Assembly: GCA_903900025.1 (NCBI GenBank)
Contig: CAIULN010000020.1
Location: forward strand, 1 to 64,000
Direction: 5' to 3'
From: an uncultured Methanomicrobiales archaeon
GTDB taxonomy: Archaea; Halobacteriota; Methanomicrobia; Methanomicrobiales; Methanospirillaceae
Length of the DNA stretch: 64,000 nucleotides
A program made the position numbers and the translations under genes. Within the stretch, counting starts at the first letter, position 1. The number at the start of each line of letters is the position of its first letter. This document shows, in pieces, positions 22,628-33,321 of the stretch. The notes under the pieces were generated by a model, which made no database searches, was not told where the DNA came from, and saw nothing but the letters and a program-made list of their open reading frames with translations.

Positions 22628-24658
22628 ATGACCGACGTAAAAATCGCAGTAACATCCGGTGAAAAACGCCTACAAAACCGGATATTATCGATTTCTACAC
22701 CACGTGCCTATGATGAAACCGCCTATCATCTCCCTGTCTCGTACGCACTGACCGGACTTGCTGTGCATGATCGTGCAACTGCGCAGGAGGCCTATGCCCG
22801 GTCAGGGAACAACACGATCGTCGCAGCAGAATGCCTCCTTTCAGAACAGTTTGCCATAGGGGGAAAAGAACATGCACCGTACACGGGATTTATCGGGGAT
22901 ACGGTGCTGCGCAAGCTGGGGTATTCCCTTGTTGACGGGAGCATTCTGGGCCTCGCCCTAGTGATCGGCACACCGGACAACGCAGGTCTGGCAGCCGGTA
23001 TCTGCAGGGAGCTGCAGGAAAAATACATGCTCACCTTTCTCTCCGGGGGTGTCGTTCCTGCACTCTCCGGCACTGGCGTGAAACTGGGGCTTGAATACCG
23101 CCTCATTCCGCTGGGTTCCACGAATACGCACGGGATACACTTCGCAGACATTGTAGCACGGGTTGCGATGATGTTTGGCGGCGTGACTCCGGGTGACTCC
23201 GGACGGCTCCTGAAATATGCCACCGAACGGGCAAAGGCAATCGTGATTGTCTTTTCCGGCCTTTCCGATGAGGACATTGCTTTGGTGGACGCGATGAGAG
23301 CCCTTGGTTTTCCCATTGTTTCCCTTGGACCATACAGCGGCGATGCATGGATTACTGCCATCCCGGAAGATGCGGTGCGCGTGGGAATGGAGGCAAAAGG
23401 CATCCGGGTCACCGTTACTGCCATACCAATCCCGATGGCGTGTTCCCCGGCGTTTGAGGGAAAAAGCATCAGGAAAGAGGAGATGTACGTCGAATTCGGG
23501 GGCGGGAGGTCGCCGGCATTTGAACTGTTAAGGATGCGGAGACCTGGCGAGATCAAGGACGGGCAGATAACCGTGATCGGCCCCGAGATCGATGCGATGA
23601 CGGAAGGGTCTGCAAACCCTCTTGGCATCATTATCGAGGTCGCCGGCAAATCCATGAAAAAGGATTATGAACCGATACTGGAGCGCAGGATCCATAACTT
23701 TGTCAATTACGGGGAAGGATCATGGCATGTTGCCCAGAGGGATCTCATCTGGGTCAGGATCTCAAAGGAAGCGGTTGCAAAAGGCGTAAGGATCGAGCAT
23801 ATCGGAAAACTTCTTGCAGGCAAGTTCCGGATGGACTTCTCAGCGCTCCTCGATGCGGTCGCCGTCACCCTGATCACGGATGAGAAAAAAGTACTTGCAG
23901 CAAAGGATGAGGCAGAAAAAGTCTATGAAGAACGCGATGCACGGATACAGGGGATGCGGGATGAGGACGTAGACACGTATTATTCCTGCACACTCTGCCA
24001 GACATTCGCACCCAATCATGTATGCGTCATCACTCCCGAACGCCCCGCTCTCTGCGGAGCCATCAGCTGGCTCGATGGAAAAATTGCCTACGAAATCTCG
24101 CCCGCGGGCCCGAACCAACCTGTAAAGAAAGGGGCGTTAATCAACGCACAGAACGGGGAGTACGAGGGAGTCAACCGGTTTGTGAAAAAAACAAGCCACG
24201 GCGAGATCGACCGGTGCTCGCTGTACAGCGTCATGGAATACCCGATGACCTGCTGCGGGTGTTTCGAGTGCATCGCCCTCATGCTCCCGGAAGTGAACGG
24301 GATTATGGTCGTGAACCGTGAGTTCAAAGGAGTCACGCCGTCAGGGATGACGTTCTCCACGCTTGCCGGGACAATCGGCGGGGGGGCACAGACGCCCGGT
24401 TTTGCGGGTATTTCCAAGAACTATATTCTCTCAGACCGGTTCCTCCAGGGGGAAGGGGGTATTGAGCGCCTCGTCTGGATGCCGATCCAGCTTAAGGACG
24501 AATTAAAAAATCGGCTGCAGAAAAAACTCAGTGAACAGGGTCATGCTGACCTCTTTGAAAAGATCGCCGATGAAACAAAGGCAGCTACCATTGAAGAACT
24601 CACAACGTATCTCGCCGGCGTGGATCACCCAGCCCTCTCAATGAAACCGCTGGTGTGA
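22628..24658 (+). CDS. acsB: Acetyl-CoA synthase catalytic subunit, bacterial AcsB-type
   Basis: AcsB joins a methyl group, CO and CoA into acetyl-CoA at a nickel-iron-sulfur A-cluster. In this 676-residue protein the 4Fe-4S ligands are Cys454, 457, 466 and 476 (YSCTLCQTFAPNHVC then PALCG). The two-nickel ligands are the Cys543-Gly544-Cys545 motif in TCCGCFEC, with extra Cys on each side. GGVTPG, YVEFGGGRSPAFELLR and GPNQP segments also match the acetogen enzyme. Archaeal CdhC is about 470 residues and lacks the N-terminal domain; this one keeps it, though it is shorter than the 729-residue Moorella enzyme at the extreme N-terminus. Start: ATG 22628 with AGAGG ten bases upstream; ATG 22556 is possible. 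First gene of a six-gene operon. No carbon monoxide dehydrogenase catalytic gene is adjacent. Confidence 0.95.
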   Translation: MTDVKIAVTSGEKRLQNRILSISTPRAYDETAYHLPVSYALTGLAVHDRATAQEAYARSGNNTIVAAECLLSEQFAIGGKEHAPYTGFIGDTVLRKLGYSLVDGSILGLALVIGTPDNAGLAAGICRELQEKYMLTFLSGGVVPALSGTGVKLGLEYRLIPLGSTNTHGIHFADIVARVAMMFGGVTPGDSGRLLKYATERAKAIVIVFSGLSDEDIALVDAMRALGFPIVSLGPYSGDAWITAIPEDAVRVGMEAKGIRVTVTAIPIPMACSPAFEGKSIRKEEMYVEFGGGRSPAFELLRMRRPGEIKDGQITVIGPEIDAMTEGSANPLGIIIEVAGKSMKKDYEPILERRIHNFVNYGEGSWHVAQRDLIWVRISKEAVAKGVRIEHIGKLLAGKFRMDFSALLDAVAVTLITDEKKVLAAKDEAEKVYEERDARIQGMRDEDVDTYYSCTLCQTFAPNHVCVITPERPALCGAISWLDGKIAYEISPAGPNQPVKKGALINAQNGEYEGVNRFVKKTSHGEIDRCSLYSVMEYPMTCCGCFECIALMLPEVNGIMVVNREFKGVTPSGMTFSTLAGTIGGGAQTPGFAGISKNYILSDRFLQGEGGIERLVWMPIQLKDELKNRLQKKLSEQGHADLFEKIADETKAATIEELTTYLAGVDHPALSMKPLV

Positions 24659-24667
24659 GGGCAGACG

Positions 24668-25627
24668 ATGGCACCTGATATCCGATTTGACTGGACAGGT
24701 ACGGTTGGCAGCGTCGTTCTTGGTGCTACAAAAACGGAGGGGGGAACACGAAAAATTTCATACCGGATTGGGGGCGGGAGTACCCTGCCGTTTCTTTCCG
24801 GCAATGCTTCCTCACCTTCGCCCCTCGTTGCGCTGGAGATCTGCGATACATCCGAGTACTGGTCTCCCGTCATACGGAATTACTGTGGTGATCTTGTTGA
24901 CGATATCCATGCTTGGTCGCAGGCTGCAGAGACTCTCTATGGGGCTGACCTTGTCCGCCTGTACCTGACAAGCACAAAGGAACGGAATTTTTCCGATATT
25001 GTGTCGGTGAAAACGAGCATTGAGGACGTGCTGTCGGCTACAGGTCTCCCTCTTATTATTGAAGGGAGCAATGAGCCAAAGATCGACAGTGAAGTGTTCC
25101 TGAAATGTGGTGAGGCGGGGGAGGGCGAGCGTTTGCTTCTTGGGACCGCAGAAGCCAGCAGGTACCGCAGTATCGCTGCCGCTGCACTTGCCTACAACCA
25201 TTCGCTTATTGCCCAGTCGCCGATCGATATCAACCTCGCAAAACAGCTCAATATCCTGCTGCGCGAGATAGGAGTCCCGCGCGATCATATCGTCATCGAT
25301 CCGTACACCGGCACACTCGGATATGGTTTTGAGTACTCGTACTCTGCAATCGAACGCATCCGGTTCTCCGCTCTCAAAGGTGATGCCGACCTTGCGATGC
25401 CCATGATCTCTTCTGCAACCGACACACTTACAGTAAAGGAGGTCAGGGAAGCAGATCCAAAATGGCAGGATGAGATAGCTGTACAGTGGGAATTCTATAC
25501 CGGCATCGCAGCGGCAGTCGCCGGCGCTGAGATCATCTGTGTACGTCATCCAAGGACCATCCCCATGTTGCGGAAGGCTTTCCTGGACCTCAAAACCGGT
25601 ACTGCAGGTCCCGCGGGGTTGACGTGA
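24668..25627 (+). CDS. acsD: Corrinoid iron-sulfur protein small subunit
   Basis: AcsD (CdhD) is the TIM-barrel subunit of the corrinoid iron-sulfur protein that carries the methyl group to acetyl-CoA synthase. The 319-residue product shows the family pattern VALEICDTSEYWS, DLVRLYLTST, IIEGSNEPKIDSEV, LIAQSPIDINLAKQLN and IVIDPYTGTLGYGFEY. Length matches the bacterial AcsD form rather than the longer archaeal CdhD. A GAGGGCAG site precedes the ATG, ten bases after the acsB stop. It pairs with AcsC, encoded directly downstream with a one-base gap. Confidence 0.95.
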   Translation: MAPDIRFDWTGTVGSVVLGATKTEGGTRKISYRIGGGSTLPFLSGNASSPSPLVALEICDTSEYWSPVIRNYCGDLVDDIHAWSQAAETLYGADLVRLYLTSTKERNFSDIVSVKTSIEDVLSATGLPLIIEGSNEPKIDSEVFLKCGEAGEGERLLLGTAEASRYRSIAAAALAYNHSLIAQSPIDINLAKQLNILLREIGVPRDHIVIDPYTGTLGYGFEYSYSAIERIRFSALKGDADLAMPMISSATDTLTVKEVREADPKWQDEIAVQWEFYTGIAAAVAGAEIICVRHPRTIPMLRKAFLDLKTGTAGPAGLT

Positions 25628-25628
25628 G

Positions 25629-26999
25629 ATGGCACTCAAGGCACTCGACATTTACAAACTCCTGCCAAAGAAAAACTGCAAGGAGTGTGGCGATCCCACC
25701 TGTCTTACCTTTGCCATGAAGCTTGCCGGAGGAAAAGCGGATATTGATCTCTGTCCCTATCTTGACGAACAGGCGAAATCAGTGCTCGGTGCAACGACCC
25801 GCCCGCCAATCCGGCTGGTAAGGATGGGGGTTGGAGAACGTTCGTTTGCAGTTGGTGAGGAATTTGTGCTCTACCGTCACGAGAAAACGTTTTACCACCC
25901 GCCCGGTATTTTTTTCAAAGTGTCCGATACCCAGTCCGCAGAAGAGATCGCTGCAGTGACAAACCGGGTCAGGGATGAATCGTTTGTCCGTGTCGGTGCA
26001 GATCTCCAGGTCAATGGTATTGCTGTTGAAAACGTCAGCAATTCGAGGGAGACCTATGCAAACGCTGTTGCAACGGTTGAGAAAACGGCCGATCTCCCGC
26101 TTGTGCTCATGGGAAAAAACGTTGATGTTCTCACCGCTGCCCTCGTCCACTGTGGGACGTACCGTCCCCTAATCCATGCAGCGACATTAGAAAATTTTAG
26201 GGAGATGTATGCACTCGCAAAACAGCATGGCTGTCCTCTCGTGATCAAGGCAAAGGGCCTGGATGAACTCGCCGGTCTTGCCAGAACATGCTCAAATGAA
26301 GGGATCCGGGATATCATCTTGGACCCTGCACCGCAGTCCCTCCGTGACTTTATCACAACATCAACGTCTGTCCGCCAGCTCGCGATAACTAGAACAGTGC
26401 CGGATCTCGGGTATCCGGTATTTCTCGATGCCACATTGTCTGCCATGCAGGATGCCGCCGTGGCGCTGGGCATCGTAAAATATGCATCCGTGATCGTTGC
26501 TGCCCCGCTTTCACCGGCGTCCACCAGGGCAGCACTTACGCTTCGCCAGAATATCTATACCGATCCCCAGAAACCGATCCAGATGAACCCCGGCCTGTAC
26601 CGCATCGGCTCACCCGGTAAAGATGCACCGGTGCTCATGACCGTGAACTTTTCCCTCACATTCTTTACCCTTGAAGGGTACCTCGAGGCAACCCGCATCC
26701 CCTGCTTTATGCTGATTGTCGATACGGAGGGATTATCGGTGCTGACCTCAGTTGCGGCGGGAAAACTCAACGAAACACTGGTCAGGGATTCGATGAAAAA
26801 ATTCGCTGTAGAAAACGAAGTTTCCCACCGGAACCTGATCATCCCCGGCTATGCGTCACCGCTTTCCGGCAGGATTGAGGAGGCGACCGGCTGGAAGGTA
26901 CTCGTCGGGCCGCGCGATGCTGCCGAGATTGGAGATTTTCTACAAAAAGGAGTGGAAAAAGTAGATGCCGACTGTCACGTTCTTCCCGAGTTACCGTAA
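25629..26999 (+). CDS. acsC: Corrinoid iron-sulfur protein large subunit
   Basis: AcsC (CdhE) holds a low-potential 4Fe-4S cluster and the cobamide that accepts methyl from the pterin. The N-terminal cluster ligands are Cys17, 20, 25 and 42 (KKNCKECGDPTC, then LCPYL). A TIM barrel follows, then a C-terminal cobamide-binding region with TDP-like spacing, including VNFSLTFFTLEGYLE and VDTEGLSVLTSVAAGKL. Length (456) is standard. The stop lies 35 bases inside the following acsV gene, so expression is coupled. Confidence 0.95.
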   Translation: MALKALDIYKLLPKKNCKECGDPTCLTFAMKLAGGKADIDLCPYLDEQAKSVLGATTRPPIRLVRMGVGERSFAVGEEFVLYRHEKTFYHPPGIFFKVSDTQSAEEIAAVTNRVRDESFVRVGADLQVNGIAVENVSNSRETYANAVATVEKTADLPLVLMGKNVDVLTAALVHCGTYRPLIHAATLENFREMYALAKQHGCPLVIKAKGLDELAGLARTCSNEGIRDIILDPAPQSLRDFITTSTSVRQLAITRTVPDLGYPVFLDATLSAMQDAAVALGIVKYASVIVAAPLSPASTRAALTLRQNIYTDPQKPIQMNPGLYRIGSPGKDAPVLMTVNFSLTFFTLEGYLEATRIPCFMLIVDTEGLSVLTSVAAGKLNETLVRDSMKKFAVENEVSHRNLIIPGYASPLSGRIEEATGWKVLVGPRDAAEIGDFLQKGVEKVDADCHVLPELP

Positions 27000-28866
27000 G
27001 ATCGAGGTTGAATCCGGATGCACCGTACTTGAAGCATCACAGCGGGCCGGGTTTAATGTAAATGTCGTCTGCGGGGGGCAGGGGAAGTGCGGCAAGTGTG
27101 TTGTCTTCATCGTATCAGGCAAAACAGAATTTGACAGTCAGAAATTTTTACGGTTTTTCACATCTGAGGAACTCTCACGGGGTGCCTGTCTTGCATGCCA
27201 GACAACAGTACAGGGAAATGTGAAGGTCACTATTCCCGACAGCACCCTGATCCAGGAGCAGAAGATCTTAATCGAAGGAACTGAGATCGGGATAGAGTTC
27301 CGGCCTTCAGTGAAAAAATACTATATCGAGCTTTCTGCCCCCACCCTTGCTGACCCGTCACCTGATCTGTCACGACTTCTCTGGGGGATCCAGAAAAGCG
27401 GGGGTCCGGTGGCGGAAAAGATTTACGCTCCCCTCGAGGTGCTTCGCGACATCCCTGCAATCCTGCGCCATAGTAACTGGAAGGTCACTGGCACCATAGC
27501 CCTTGTACCTGGTGGCTACCGTCTCATCGACCTTCAGGAATTTGACACATCGAAAAAGCTGTACGGTGTGGCGGTCGACCTGGGTACTACAACCATCGTT
27601 GTATACCTCTGGGACCTTGTCAGCGGAAAGGTGCTGGGTGTTGCCTCGAACTACAACCGGCAGATCAGCTGCGGCGAGGATATCCTTGCAAGGGTGAACT
27701 TTGCCCGGAAAAACGGGCTTACAAAACTGCAGGCATTAGCGGTTGATAGTATCAACACCGCAATTACCATGGTTTCAGACGCAACTTCAATCGACCTCGA
27801 TGACATCTACGAGGTTGTGGTCGCGGGAAATACGGTCATGACCCATATGCTACTGGGAATCGACCCCGAGTACATGATTGCCGAACCGTACGTCCCGGTC
27901 GTTCGCCGGGCACTGTCAGTCGCTTCGAACCGGATCGGGATTGCCTGTAACCCCAACAGTGGACTTTTTGCGTTCCCTGCTGTAAGCGACTTTATCGGGG
28001 GGGATATTATTGCTGACATCCTTGCCTGCGGCATGGGTGAACGGGACGATATTTCGCTTCTCATCGACATTGGAACGAATTTTGAAGTGGTCCTCGGCAA
28101 CCGCGAATGGATGTTTTCCTGTGCCGGGGCTGCCGGTCCCGCACTTGAGGGAGGTGAGGTGCTCTATGGCATGCGTGCAAACCCCGGGGCCATTGAAAAG
28201 ATCACGATCGATCCCGGGACACTCAACCCTGTGTATGCCACCATTAATGACATTCAACCAAAGGGGATCTGTGGTTCGGGGCTGATAGACTTTTTAGCCG
28301 GACTCCTCACCGCCTGTGTCATTGACCGCACAGGCCGCATCAATATGGAAATTAAAAACCCACGGATCCGGCAGGGACGCTTTGGGCCCGAGTTTGTTGT
28401 TGCATGGGCATCAGAGACGGATATCGGAAAAGATATCGTTATCACACAAAATGATGTCAAGAGCCTGATTATGAGCAAGGCATCGGTTCATGCAGCATGT
28501 ATCACGCTTATGAAAGCTGCCGGCGTGACATGCGATGATATCGCCACCATCTACTTTTCCGGGGCGTTTGGCAACTATATAAACAAAACAAACGCCATCA
28601 CAATAGGTCTGATTCCGGAAATTTCGATCGACCATATTACAAATATTGGAAATGGGGCTGTTACCGGCGCAAATATCGCGTTAATCGACCGTAAGAAACG
28701 CAAGATTCTTGACAATATTGCTACAAAGATCGCCTATATTGAACTGAACGCTGAACCATCATTCATGGATGAATACACGTCCAGCACATTCCTCCCGCAT
28801 ACAGACCTTTCGCTGTTCCCCCGTGTGCAGAAGATGCTTGACGAATGCCGGCTCCGCAGGAACTGA
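26965..28866 (+). CDS. acsV: Reductive activator of the corrinoid protein (RACo/AcsV)
   Basis: RACo uses ATP to re-reduce accidentally oxidised Co(II) of the corrinoid iron-sulfur protein. The 633-residue product has an N-terminal 2Fe-2S ferredoxin domain with Cys36, 42, 45 and 78 (CGGQGKCGKC, then CLAC), a linker, and a large ASKHA ATPase domain with AVDLGTTTIVVYLWDL, LIDIGTNFEVVLG, CAGAAGPALEGGE, GICGSGLIDFL and FSGAFGNYI. This organisation is that of acetogen AcsV. Methanogens with the standard Cdh complex usually rely on a different, shorter activator, so its presence supports a bacterial-type module. GGAG precedes the ATG inside acsC. Confidence 0.93.
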   Translation: MPTVTFFPSYRKIEVESGCTVLEASQRAGFNVNVVCGGQGKCGKCVVFIVSGKTEFDSQKFLRFFTSEELSRGACLACQTTVQGNVKVTIPDSTLIQEQKILIEGTEIGIEFRPSVKKYYIELSAPTLADPSPDLSRLLWGIQKSGGPVAEKIYAPLEVLRDIPAILRHSNWKVTGTIALVPGGYRLIDLQEFDTSKKLYGVAVDLGTTTIVVYLWDLVSGKVLGVASNYNRQISCGEDILARVNFARKNGLTKLQALAVDSINTAITMVSDATSIDLDDIYEVVVAGNTVMTHMLLGIDPEYMIAEPYVPVVRRALSVASNRIGIACNPNSGLFAFPAVSDFIGGDIIADILACGMGERDDISLLIDIGTNFEVVLGNREWMFSCAGAAGPALEGGEVLYGMRANPGAIEKITIDPGTLNPVYATINDIQPKGICGSGLIDFLAGLLTACVIDRTGRINMEIKNPRIRQGRFGPEFVVAWASETDIGKDIVITQNDVKSLIMSKASVHAACITLMKAAGVTCDDIATIYFSGAFGNYINKTNAITIGLIPEISIDHITNIGNGAVTGANIALIDRKKRKILDNIATKIAYIELNAEPSFMDEYTSSTFLPHTDLSLFPRVQKMLDECRLRRN

Positions 28867-28870
28867 TTTT

Positions 28871-29905
28871 ATGGCAAAAATGATCTCATCGCCCCACTCC
28901 AGAGCAACCGGAGTTGGTGCACTCCCCCACACAGATCCGGTGCAGGCATGCTCCGATGTTCTCTCGATTTTTGGTGACTTCCCCTACGTCCCAACGCTCC
29001 CGGACCATGGACAACTGGAAAGCATCGTCTACAACGATTCGGAACAGCTGCCCGGGAGGATCATGCGTGACGACCGGCTTGTCTTTGACAGCAGTGCTGA
29101 TACCACTGTAGCGATGGAAAAGATCTACGCTGATTACATGGAGGGAAATTTCTCCCCCTATGCACTCCATAAAAAATACGGGTCCGGTTTTATCGAGATG
29201 ATGAAGCAGGATCTCTCGATAGCTCCCATCCTCAAATGTCAGGTAACGGGTCCGGTCACATTTGGCATGCAGGTGGTCGATGCCGGCAAACGGCCGATGT
29301 ATTATGACACTCAGCTTGCCGACATGCTCTCCAAGCTGCTTGCACTGCGTGCCCGCTGGTGTGAGATAGAGATGCAGACAAGAACCGGTGTGAAAGAGAC
29401 GCTGGTTGTCCTGAATGAACCCTACCTTGCATCATTGGGTTCTTCAGTCGTCCCAATCGACCGCGATTCCGTCAGGTCAGGCTGGCAGGATATCGCTGCC
29501 TTCGTTGACGGGGGACTGGGGATCCATTGCTGCTCGAACACAGACTGGGAATTTGTCATTGGCCTGAACCCCTCCGTTATCTCGATTGATGCCTACACAA
29601 CAGCAAAGGAATTTTTGCTGTACAGTGATTCCATCTGCGGGTATCTTGAAGCGGGCGGGGCAGTTGCCTGGGGCATTGTACCTGCTGACTTCCGGGTATT
29701 CTCCCAGGAAACCATCGGTTCACTCTACCGAAGGTATGGTGCAATCCGGGAAGAGATCTGCACCTTGATTCCTGAGTCACTTTTCGACCGGCAGTCCCTG
29801 ATTACCCCGAGCTGCGGGATTAGGTTTGCCGACCGCAACGGGGCAATTGCGATCATGCAGGCAGCTGCAGAAATTTCCTTGCGCATCAGGAAACAGGCGG
29901 GGTGA
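28871..29905 (+). CDS. MetE-like core methionine synthase (MesB candidate)
   Basis: The 344-residue protein matches the C-terminal catalytic half of cobalamin-independent methionine synthase and lacks the folate-binding N-terminal half. The zinc ligands are all present: His219 and Cys221 (GIHCCSN), Glu260 (GYLEAGG) and Cys315 (PSCGIRF). KCQVTGPVTFG and VVLNEPYLAS are substrate-site segments. Published core methionine synthases of the MesB and MesC families are found in anaerobes with the Wood-Ljungdahl pathway and are thought to take methyl from the corrinoid iron-sulfur protein. Sitting between acsV and cooC, this gene fits that role. A methyltransferase for pterin to corrinoid is the alternative. 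ATG 28871 has AGGAAC upstream. Confidence 0.78.
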   Translation: MAKMISSPHSRATGVGALPHTDPVQACSDVLSIFGDFPYVPTLPDHGQLESIVYNDSEQLPGRIMRDDRLVFDSSADTTVAMEKIYADYMEGNFSPYALHKKYGSGFIEMMKQDLSIAPILKCQVTGPVTFGMQVVDAGKRPMYYDTQLADMLSKLLALRARWCEIEMQTRTGVKETLVVLNEPYLASLGSSVVPIDRDSVRSGWQDIAAFVDGGLGIHCCSNTDWEFVIGLNPSVISIDAYTTAKEFLLYSDSICGYLEAGGAVAWGIVPADFRVFSQETIGSLYRRYGAIREEICTLIPESLFDRQSLITPSCGIRFADRNGAIAIMQAAAEISLRIRKQAG

Positions 29906-29909
29906 AACC

Positions 29910-30674
29910 ATCGCAAAACCGTCATTCACGATAGCAATTTCCGGCAAAGGCGGCACGGGAAAGACCACGTTAAGTTCCCTGCTCATCCGCTCCCTGATCG
30001 AAGAGGGGGAAAGACCAATCCTCGCTGTCGATGCAGACCCGAATGCCAACCTCCACGAGGCACTCGGTGTGGAGGTACGTGAAACGCTTGGCAGCATGCG
30101 GGAGGAGGCATTCACAAAAAATATCCCTCCGGGCATGTCCCGCCACGATTATATCAGGTACAGGTTCCGGCAGGCCATCGTTGAATCGGACGGGTTTGAT
30201 CTCCTTGCGATGGGACGCCCTGAGGGGAGCGGGTGCTACTGTTTTGCAAACGATCTTCTCTCTGAATCCATGCAGCAGCTCGGGCGTGAGTACCGGTTCA
30301 TCGTCATCGATACCGAGGCAGGCATGGAACACATCAGCCGTGGGACAATCGGGAGACCGGATGTCCTGCTCATCGTCAGCGACCCGGGTGCACGGGGGTT
30401 GCGCACCGTCATTCGGATCCGGGCAATCGCCATTTCGCTCGGACTCGGTGAAGAGAAGATCCACGTGGTCTTCAATCGCTTTAAAACCGGCGCGGCACAG
30501 GTGGACATCGGCAAGCAGGTCCCGTTTGCCATAATTCCTGAAGACCCTGCAGTTGAAGCAGCAGACCTTGCTGCGATACCGGTCGCACAGATCCCACCTG
30601 ACAGTCCGGCGCGGGTTGCAGTGCGGGAACTTGCAGTGAAGCTGGCGGGCATGGCAGAACGCAGGGAGACCTGA
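29910..30674 (+). CDS. cooC: CooC/AcsF-type nickel-insertion ATPase, with an apparent ATC start
   Basis: This MinD-like ATPase (254 residues) matures nickel enzymes such as carbon monoxide dehydrogenase and acetyl-CoA synthase. It has the deviant P-loop SGKGGTGKTT at residues 11-20, DADPNANL, the CxC metal-binding pair at Cys109 and Cys111 (GSGCYCFAND) and VIDTEAGMEHISRG. No ATG, GTG or TTG lies in frame near the homologous start; the nearest is ATG 29826, deep inside the upstream gene. ATC at 29910, five bases after the metE-like stop and behind GGCGGGGTGA, gives the natural N-terminus AKPSFTIAISG. This suggests a rare initiation codon or a sequence error. Confidence 0.88.
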   Translation: MAKPSFTIAISGKGGTGKTTLSSLLIRSLIEEGERPILAVDADPNANLHEALGVEVRETLGSMREEAFTKNIPPGMSRHDYIRYRFRQAIVESDGFDLLAMGRPEGSGCYCFANDLLSESMQQLGREYRFIVIDTEAGMEHISRGTIGRPDVLLIVSDPGARGLRTVIRIRAIAISLGLGEEKIHVVFNRFKTGAAQVDIGKQVPFAIIPEDPAVEAADLAAIPVAQIPPDSPARVAVRELAVKLAGMAERRET

Positions 30675-30705
30675 AATTAAAAGGGGAGAAGGTACGCGCC
30701 ATGGA

Positions 30706-30742
30706 AAGCCCGGCCTCGACACGTCGATGTGCCGGGTTTTTC
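30706..30742 (+). terminator. Hairpin and T-tract after the acs operon
   Basis: GCCCGGC at 30708-30714 can pair with GCCGGGT at 30731-30737, and the interior TCGAC/GTCGA forms a second stem with a two-base loop. A T-rich tail follows at once (30737-30741, then CC and more T). It lies about 32 bases after the cooC stop, a sensible place for termination or 3'-end formation of the six-gene message. Confidence 0.6.
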
Positions 30743-31666: not shown

Positions 31667-32001
31667 GATCTTTAATGTATCCTCTTTTTTTATTAAGGTT
31701 CTTTTGATAGGTGGTAAATCGCAAATTTTCCAAATTTTTTTTAAGCAACATGGAAAAAAACGTGACATGTAATTCCGATTGAGAAATGAGGAGATTTATT
31801 GTATTTTTTGTCATTTATCGCTTTAATAATTGTGAATTAAACCCCTTATCATGACCTTCGATGGATGTGATCCTTTCCCATTTGGCGTGTGCATTTCAAT
31901 CACCACCGTCGCAGAAATATATGCCAACGCAGCAGGAGAAGCAATTATGTGGGAAGATTTAACCATGTTCGGACAAAAAAATACATCACTGGACGGTGGT
32001 C
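31667..32001. promoter_or_regulatory. Divergent intergenic region upstream of pdaD and the phosphoesterase fusion
   Basis: This 335-base region is AT-rich on the pdaD side (31680-31845), with TTTTTTTATTAAGG and CGCTTTAATAATTGTG as TATA-like strings. The open frames in 31851-31995 overlap each other in different phases and have no convincing protein pattern, so I treat the stretch as untranslated leader. No operator repeat is seen. Confidence 0.35.
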
Positions 32002-33321
32002 ATGGCAGACACATTTCCGGAGGATATGTTCCTTGTCGAGATTCGACTGGGAAGGACAAAATGGAGGATCAAAAAGACCACTGCCGAAATCGTCCGGATG
32101 TTCCAGATTGAAGAATTTGTTGAACAACACCCCCACATTACACTTTTTGGACCTTTTACAATAAAAAACGGGGTTTCCACTCAGCACCTGTTGAAATCCG
32201 TAAAAGATGCGGCACACCCATTCGGAGCCATCCCGTTCCTTCTCTATGGATATGATATGAATCAGGGACTGAACGGTTCAGTGATCGCTTACCGGGTCAT
32301 CCCCACCCATCAGCTCGTTGACCTGACAGAAGCAATTGCCACAGCGGTTGGCAGACTTACAGAAACCTTTACCACATGGGACAGGGACCCTGACCAGAAA
32401 TGGTTCCATGTGACCATCGCAAACAGGCTTGAACAAGGGAGGGCTGCCTGGATCTACCGTCACCTGGAGGATCAGTCACCGTTTGCGTCCCAAATTTTGG
32501 AAAAAAAGAACGGATTTCTCGGCATTATGCAAAATCCGTTCAGTACCACTAAACCGGAAGTTCATGAAGTCCCGCCGCGACCACCGCTGTACGATGAAGA
32601 CGGTCTGCGGATTACGGTTATCAGGGGTGGAAATATCCTTGCCGAATATGATTTAGAACAGCACTGCTGGTTTTCACCTGACAGCACCACTGCCGCTCTT
32701 GACTGGCAACATTCACTGCAACAATATCGCAAAAAAAGTGAAATAGAACTGTTCCATCCGCTGTATAAAAACGACCATGATATTTTTGTCATCAGCGACC
32801 TTCATCTCGGCCATGCAAATATCATACGATACTGCTCACGCCCGTTCCCCCATGACGCCACTGACGAGATGGATCAGGTACTGATCAAAAACTGGAATTA
32901 CACAGTAAAACCCGGTGACAGGATCTACCATATAGGAGATCTCTGCTATGGGCCGTATGCAAAAACTCCGTATGAATACCTCCGGCAATTAAACGGGGCT
33001 ATTTCGCTGATCCGGGGAAACCATGATGAAGGTTCAAAAACTGCCAGCCAAAAGGAAACATTGGTACACAAGGGCATCCCCTTTGCCCTCATCCATAATC
33101 CGAATGATATTCCGGAAACATTTTCTGGGTGGGTAATCCACGGGCATCACCACAACAATAATCTGGCAGATTTCCCCTTCATCAATTTTGAAAAACGCCG
33201 GATCAATGTCAGTGCTGAAGTTGTCAGATACCAGCCGGTGAGCCTTTCCGATCTCTGTAATATCATCAAAGACCACCAGTTGAAACCGAAAATAAAAACC
33301 ATCCTGTTACGTGGTGAATAG
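32002..33321 (+). CDS. Fusion of 2H phosphoesterase (LigT-like) and calcineurin-type metallophosphoesterase
   Basis: The 439-residue protein joins two RNA/nucleotide-processing folds. The N-terminal 2H domain (about 1-180) has the two His-x-Thr motifs His45-Ile-Thr47 and His136-Val-Thr138 of LigT and cyclic phosphodiesterases. The C-terminal domain (about 260-420) has the full metallophosphoesterase set: ISDLHLGHANII (Asp266, His268), GDLCYG (312-317), RGNHDE (338-343) and IHGHHHN (379-385). A proline-rich linker and a small beta segment separate them. A 2',3'-cyclic phosphate could be opened by one half and the phosphate removed by the other, which is inference. No ligase or kinase is adjacent. 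Start ATG 32002; GTG 31996 is possible. Confidence 0.85.
   Translation: MADTFPEDMFLVEIRLGRTKWRIKKTTAEIVRMFQIEEFVEQHPHITLFGPFTIKNGVSTQHLLKSVKDAAHPFGAIPFLLYGYDMNQGLNGSVIAYRVIPTHQLVDLTEAIATAVGRLTETFTTWDRDPDQKWFHVTIANRLEQGRAAWIYRHLEDQSPFASQILEKKNGFLGIMQNPFSTTKPEVHEVPPRPPLYDEDGLRITVIRGGNILAEYDLEQHCWFSPDSTTAALDWQHSLQQYRKKSEIELFHPLYKNDHDIFVISDLHLGHANIIRYCSRPFPHDATDEMDQVLIKNWNYTVKPGDRIYHIGDLCYGPYAKTPYEYLRQLNGAISLIRGNHDEGSKTASQKETLVHKGIPFALIHNPNDIPETFSGWVIHGHHHNNNLADFPFINFEKRRINVSAEVVRYQPVSLSDLCNIIKDHQLKPKIKTILLRGE

Follow-up and report, generated by a model that had tools for sequence, protein, structure and literature searches.

Acetyl-CoA synthase (ACS) and carbon monoxide dehydrogenase (CODH) are usually thought of as a pair that cannot be split, since CO passes through a channel from one to the other. 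What, then, is the role of an ACS in an archaeon in which no gene for a CODH accompanies it? The question is raised by a stretch of 64,000 nucleotides (termed the window herein) from an uncultured archaeon of the Methanomicrobiales, family Methanospirillaceae (GenBank assembly GCA_903900025.1, contig CAIULN010000020.1, positions 1 to 64,000 of the forward strand). Six head-to-tail genes on the plus strand, at 22628-30674, follow each other in the order acsB-acsD-acsC-acsV-mesB-cooC/acsF and end in a hairpin. They encode a long, bacterial-type ACS (AcsB), the two subunits of the corrinoid iron-sulfur protein (CoFeSP; AcsC and AcsD), the CoFeSP activator AcsV, a core methionine synthase of the MesB type, and a predicted nickel-insertion ATPase. 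The data presented below suggest that this AcsB probably works without a CODH partner.

Occurrence of the operon and of CODH genes

The host genome of the window (G000; 1.75 Mb, 103 contigs, 90.4% complete) contains no match to PF03063 (Prismane/CODH) up to E = 1 and no CdhA over the cut-off, and its single gene with a CdhC domain is the operon's own acsB. The first-pass annotation of the window, made from the sequence alone, had noted that no CODH gene lies beside the operon; none was found inside the six-gene set, and the genome-wide search it proposed likewise returned neither a CODH gene nor a second CdhC at this level of completeness. Across genomes, CODH genes were called with TIGR01702 and TIGR00314; matches to Prismane alone were not used, as hybrid cluster proteins also match it.

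Long AcsB proteins are encoded in 84 of 199 Methanomicrobiales genomes. The mesB gene is also present in 84, and 83 have both, which strengthens the link to methionine methylation proposed in the first-pass annotation. Sixteen genomes with CdhA but without a long AcsB lack mesB; MesB therefore tracks the long-AcsB module and not Cdh. Among the 61 carriers that are at least 90% complete, 20 have CooS only, 17 have CooS and CdhA, 14 have CdhA only, and 10 have neither (G000, G165, G143, G152, G035, G071, G080, G092, G112, and G004). Apart from G000 and its closest relative, G165, the other eight are each at least 93% complete; one of them (G004) is a single contig of 1.98 Mb that is 99% complete.

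A scan of named genomes yielded 79 loci, 77 of them from Methanomicrobiales or unnamed Euryarchaeota (65-88% identity) and labelled chiefly Methanoregula, Methanolinea, and Methanoculleus; in a scan of viral contigs, no further bacterial AcsB was found. On every contig of sufficient length the gene order is identical, and the gaps have medians of 10, 2, 0, −28, and −4 bp at the 68 loci with all six genes (a set that may include a few comparators from outside the Methanomicrobiales), and a CODH gene was not found within the six-gene order at any locus examined. The module is thus not peculiar to G000, many carriers also having a canonical cdh cluster. Its gene order is fixed across Methanomicrobiales, and operons of methanogens with mesB and acsC/acsD were already reported in 2021 (Price et al. 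2021). Downstream CooS-type CODH genes were observed at L218:12860-14974 and at loci L219, L220, and L236, with a second CooC gene behind CooS in three of the four; genes for unrelated predicted membrane proteins stand between the operon and CooS in the genomes concerned (G053, G101, G186, and G190).

The ratio of nonsynonymous to synonymous substitution rates (dN/dS) between the window and the CODH-less G165 is 0.05-0.16 across the six genes, and between G112 and G092, both without CODH, it is 0.09-0.21 at a dS of about 0.2. The six genes are thus under purifying selection in CODH-less carriers, and a decaying relic in the carriers was rejected, since these values are far under 1. One genome, G058, bears a scar of the module (L224:8154-8586), in which the first ∼72 codons of acsB, frameshifted, run straight into the end of cooC; from this genome the module was therefore lost as one unit.

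A1 domain and CO alcove of AcsB

AcsB scores 918.6 bits against the whole-protein equivalog NF040764 (cut-off, 800), which places it with the long bacterial-type ACS proteins; it is 49% identical to the Carboxydothermus hydrogenoformans enzyme over 592 residues, and 45-49% identical to those of Moorella and Carboxydothermus. All seven A-cluster residues (Cys506, 509, 518, 528, 595, and 597 and Gly596) are invariant in 89 orthologues. An AlphaFold2 model of modest overall confidence (pTM, 0.46), too uncertain around the A-cluster for conclusions about side chains, matches the isolated ACS N-terminal domains 9g03_D and 6yua_A over 289-290 columns (TMt, 0.79-0.80). The earlier description of AcsB as a bacterial-style enzyme that keeps its N-terminal domain is borne out by both the profile score and the fold of this domain (A1). 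A 2024 cryo-electron microscopy study stated that A1 is absent from all methanogens and based an evolutionary argument on this (PMC11474084); the occurrence of A1 in 84 of 199 Methanomicrobiales genomes contradicts that statement.

In acetogens, A1 is the part of ACS that binds CODH (PMC11474084). Its helical bundle is shortened in the Methanomicrobiales protein, with ∼85 residues ahead of the Rossmann motif versus 131 in Moorella and an internal deletion of ∼23 residues. Against PF18537, which represents the full bundle (cut-off, 32.2 bits), the window protein reaches 18.4 bits and four relatives reach 16-31 (five members tested in all), versus 90-98 bits for CODH-linked ACS proteins from Bipolaricaulota, Acetoanaerobium, and the archaeal family f7.

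The second change concerns the alcove for CO. The position of Moorella Ile146, described in published work as Ile, Leu, Val, or Thr (PMC12289521) and as a Leu, supplied by CODH, in the Methanosarcina complex (PMC11474084), is Tyr in 87 of 87 Methanomicrobiales AcsB proteins, versus Ile or Val in all of our comparators. The residue after it is Ser or Thr in place of Lys, and the other alcove residues (Val149, Phe229, and Phe512) are retained. The Tyr may weaken CO binding, easing the exit of CO, or may strengthen it, as did enlargement of another alcove residue in Moorella (F229W), which raised CO affinity ∼80-fold (PMC11321310).

In a tree built from the 408 columns shared with CdhC, CdhC is split from all AcsB proteins with a support of 100 and a branch of 1.3. 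The Methanomicrobiales AcsB proteins are monophyletic (support, 99) and lie on the AcsB side of this split, together with Moorella, Carboxydothermus, Bipolaricaulota, and family f7. Trees of AcsC and AcsD show the same separation from Cdh, so that all three proteins stand outside the archaeal Cdh clades. Lateral acquisition, as the first-pass annotation had suggested, is compatible with these trees, which, with the few bacterial sequences included, point to no particular donor or direction of transfer. In the f7 lineage, which belongs to the same phylum, a 1,395-amino-acid open reading frame (ORF; L226:2591-6778, genome G217) joins a CooS-type CODH and an A1-type AcsB, the latter with the full PF18537 bundle, in an apparent natural CODH-ACS fusion that also occurs as 1,378-amino-acid frames in G234 and G199. 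In this lineage, acsD and acsC come after the fusion ORF, cooC and acsV are divergent, and no mesB was found.

MesB and the remaining genes

The product of the fifth gene had no match in sequence searches of Pfam, NCBIfam, or the PDB. A model predicted by AlphaFold from 31 orthologues (pLDDT, 86.6) has as its best PDB structure matches (Foldseek) MetE proteins, the cobalamin-independent methionine synthases, and a zinc ligand set of H253, C255, D274, and C349 is near-invariant in 65 orthologues; the pattern His-x-Cys, Asp/Glu, Cys was described for MesB (PMC7857596). The gene had been called MetE-like in the first pass, and model and ligands both agree with this despite the lack of sequence matches. 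MesB is predicted to accept methyl groups from CoFeSP (Price et al. 2021). MesA, another methionine synthase, is present in G000 and in almost all genomes of the order, and MesB as the sole methionine synthase was rejected.

AcsC retains the Cys motif for its Fe4S4 cluster. AcsD, to which the first pass had given the short bacterial length, fits the short PRK04452 subfamily rather than the bacterial WLP_AcsD profile (182 bits; cut-off, 430). AcsV had been identified as the acetogen reductive activator of CoFeSP (RACo); all RACo domains are present (Fer2, linker, middle, and C-terminal; PF00111, PF17650, PF17651, and PF14574), but the score against the NCBIfam AcsV profile NF040756 is 551 bits, under the cut-off of 800. 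Most of the canonical cdh clusters of Methanomicrobiales at loci L248-L259 contain, behind the gene for CdhE, a RACo gene of the AcsV-like kind, ∼30-38% identical to the AcsV of the window.

The genes are tightly packed, as first described: acsB and acsD are separated by 9 bp, acsD and acsC by 1 bp, and acsV and mesB by 4 bp, while acsC overlaps acsV by 35 bp and cooC overlaps mesB; the hairpin at the end has a fold z-score of −2.4. The start of cooC is uncertain, as the usual in-frame start codons are limited to TTG at 29826 and 29847. Upstream of the P-loop (29826-29930) there are thus only TTG starts, versus an ATG in the relative at locus L220, and either an unusual start or a sequence error is possible. 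Outside the operon, an ORF at 31996-33321 combines a 2'-5' RNA ligase-like domain (PF13563) with a calcineurin-like phosphoesterase domain (PF12850, slightly under the cut-off).

Features of the acsB-cooC operon, with positions in the window
Feature	Position	Strand	Description
acsB	22628..24658	+	Acetyl-CoA synthase/decarbonylase, 676 aa, A1+A2+A3 domains; NF040764, PF03598, PF19436
acsB Tyr99 codon	22922..22924	+	Position of alcove Ile146 (Moorella) / Ile149 (Carboxydothermus)
acsD	24668..25627	+	Small CoFeSP subunit, 319 aa; PRK04452.1-2 344 bits (cut-off 280), PF03599
acsC	25629..26999	+	Large CoFeSP subunit, 456 aa; PRK04165 559 bits (cut-off 306); PDB 2h9a E=1.8e-119
acsV	26965..28866	+	RACo-type reductive activator of CoFeSP (2Fe-2S + ASKHA), 633 aa; PDB 3zyy E=8.8e-148
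mesB-type gene	28871..29905	+	Core methionine synthase, MetE fold, without folate-binding half
cooC/acsF-type gene	29847..30674	+	Predicted nickel-insertion ATPase, P-loop, CxC; PDB CooC 3kje E=2.9e-18; PF01656
Hairpin with T-run	~30704..30742	+	Operon terminator-like; fold z-score as in the text

Reaction direction and comparison with known systems

The operon may supply MesB with methyl-CoFeSP through an acetyl-CoA decarbonylase that needs no CODH, a reading that we favour tentatively, at slightly under even chances. Acetyl-CoA synthetase, encoded in G000 as two complementary pieces on separate contigs, would convert acetate to acetyl-CoA, which the nickel A-cluster of AcsB would split into CoA, CO, and a methyl group. 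The methyl group would pass to the AcsC/AcsD corrinoid protein, kept reduced by AcsV, and MesB would transfer it from CoFeSP to homocysteine to give methionine. The CooC-type ATPase would load nickel into AcsB, presumably serving ACS as AcsF does in acetogens. In this scheme we infer the direction of the reaction, the methyl donor of MesB, the role of the ATPase, and the fate of CO.

Decarbonylation is the simplest explanation of why AcsB and MesB are so strictly paired, since MesB would draw methyl groups away from a synthase. Decarbonylation is also favoured by retention of the N-terminal domain, which ACS truncation work found to be critical for C-C bond breakage in the reverse reaction (PMC12289521). 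Several observations weigh on the other side. Methyl-tetrahydromethanopterin (methyl-H4MPT) is abundant in a methanogen, and the benefit of a methyl group derived from acetate is not obvious; the near-universal MesA suggests that methionine can be made without MesB, and our confidence is lower for it. Furthermore, 51 of the 61 good carriers encode a CODH of some kind (CooS, CdhA, or both), and in the four genomes named above a CooS gene lies ∼2 kb downstream of the operon. Beyond the single operon, the A1-bearing ACS of Methanomicrobiales could form a distinct CODH-independent class, its alcove (Ile to Tyr) and CODH-docking bundle reshaped to handle free CO. Such enzymes would most likely release CO and pass the methyl group of acetate to a dedicated methionine synthase; this broader proposal is more doubtful than not.

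Alternatively, AcsB could act as a synthase on free CO, either dissolved or produced by an unlinked CooS, with CoFeSP methylated from methyl-H4MPT, the Tyr alcove providing CO affinity without channelling, and MesB forming a side branch of CoFeSP. Like the F229W change, a bulky Tyr at position 146 might increase the affinity, so that its effect on CO binding separates this alternative from the decarbonylase reading. CooS is encoded in 37 of the 61 good carriers, and a monomeric C. hydrogenoformans ACS is known as a structure (PDB 1ru3). However, AcsE-type methyltransferases were not found in G000, where the sole strong match to Pterin_bind (PF00809) is dihydropteroate synthase; ten of the good carriers lack CODH altogether; an unlinked CooS is, as a rule, not used for the Wood-Ljungdahl pathway (PMC12827605); a MesB in every such operon would drain a synthase; and Methanospirillum hungatei, of the same order, requires acetate as a carbon source (PMC4704411). 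We consider a synthase fed with free CO unlikely.

Still less probable is an ordinary CODH/ACS whose CODH gene lies elsewhere or is missing through incomplete assembly, with A1 contacting a CooS encoded in trans. Fragmentation of G000 and its 90.4% completeness would allow for this, as would the relatives with CooS or CdhA elsewhere and the four genomes with CooS nearby. On the other hand, the CODH-less carriers include G165 and eight that are 93% complete or more, every orthologue has a short A1 bundle, even those with an adjacent CooS, and the six-gene order never includes a CODH gene at the loci examined. An assembly gap in one metagenome-assembled genome was rejected as the whole explanation, given ten good genomes without CODH. 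A second methionine synthase, in which CoFeSP fed by methyl-H4MPT and MesB form the functional core and AcsB is a maturation or redox passenger, would suit the prediction of Price et al. 2021 on MesB and its operons, but is very improbable, as AcsB is retained as strictly and conserved as strongly as the other genes and its catalytic metal ligands are invariant.

A lineage with an ACS under selection, no CODH, and an invariant alcove Tyr is a natural experiment on the roles of CODH and alcove. The role of Cdh in M. hungatei was noted as undefined (PMC4704411), and the module may account for what ACS does in Methanomicrobiales that require acetate, where its role is undefined; the decarbonylase reading also predicts a biological source of CO. 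The A1-type ACS of this order, its CODH-less state, and the Tyr alcove appear to be new, not having been found described in the accessible literature, although an earlier notice is possible.

Like the acetogen CODH/ACS systems of Moorella, Carboxydothermus, and Clostridium autoethanogenum, the operon encodes an A1+A2+A3 ACS with its A-cluster ligands, AcsC, AcsD, AcsV, and a CooC-type protein; unlike them, it has no acsA or acsE, its A1 helical bundle is truncated, its alcove Ile is replaced by Tyr, and mesB is added. The archaeal CdhABCDE complex (ACDS) carries out the same chemistry and coexists with the module in about half of the good carriers, but it has a short CdhC without A1, includes CdhA and CdhB, and forms a separate clade (support, 100). 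The mesB-acsC-acsD operon of methanogens in Price et al. 2021 shares the position of mesB beside the CoFeSP genes and methyl-CoFeSP as the proposed donor; the A1-type AcsB, the missing CODH, and the alcove change go beyond its description in the accessible part of that paper. Closest in enzyme set is the incomplete Wood-Ljungdahl route of Dehalococcoides mccartyi, which lacks CODH and AcsE and for which cleavage of acetyl-CoA to CO and a methyl group ending in methionine has been proposed (PMC7005905); AcsB, AcsCD, the CoFeSP activator, and a core-MetE/MesB protein belong to both sets, and neither CODH nor AcsE was found in G000 (PMC7005905, PMC7857596). The likeness lies in this enzyme set, whereas here the host is an archaeon with MesA and methyl-H4MPT and the genes are held in one fixed operon.

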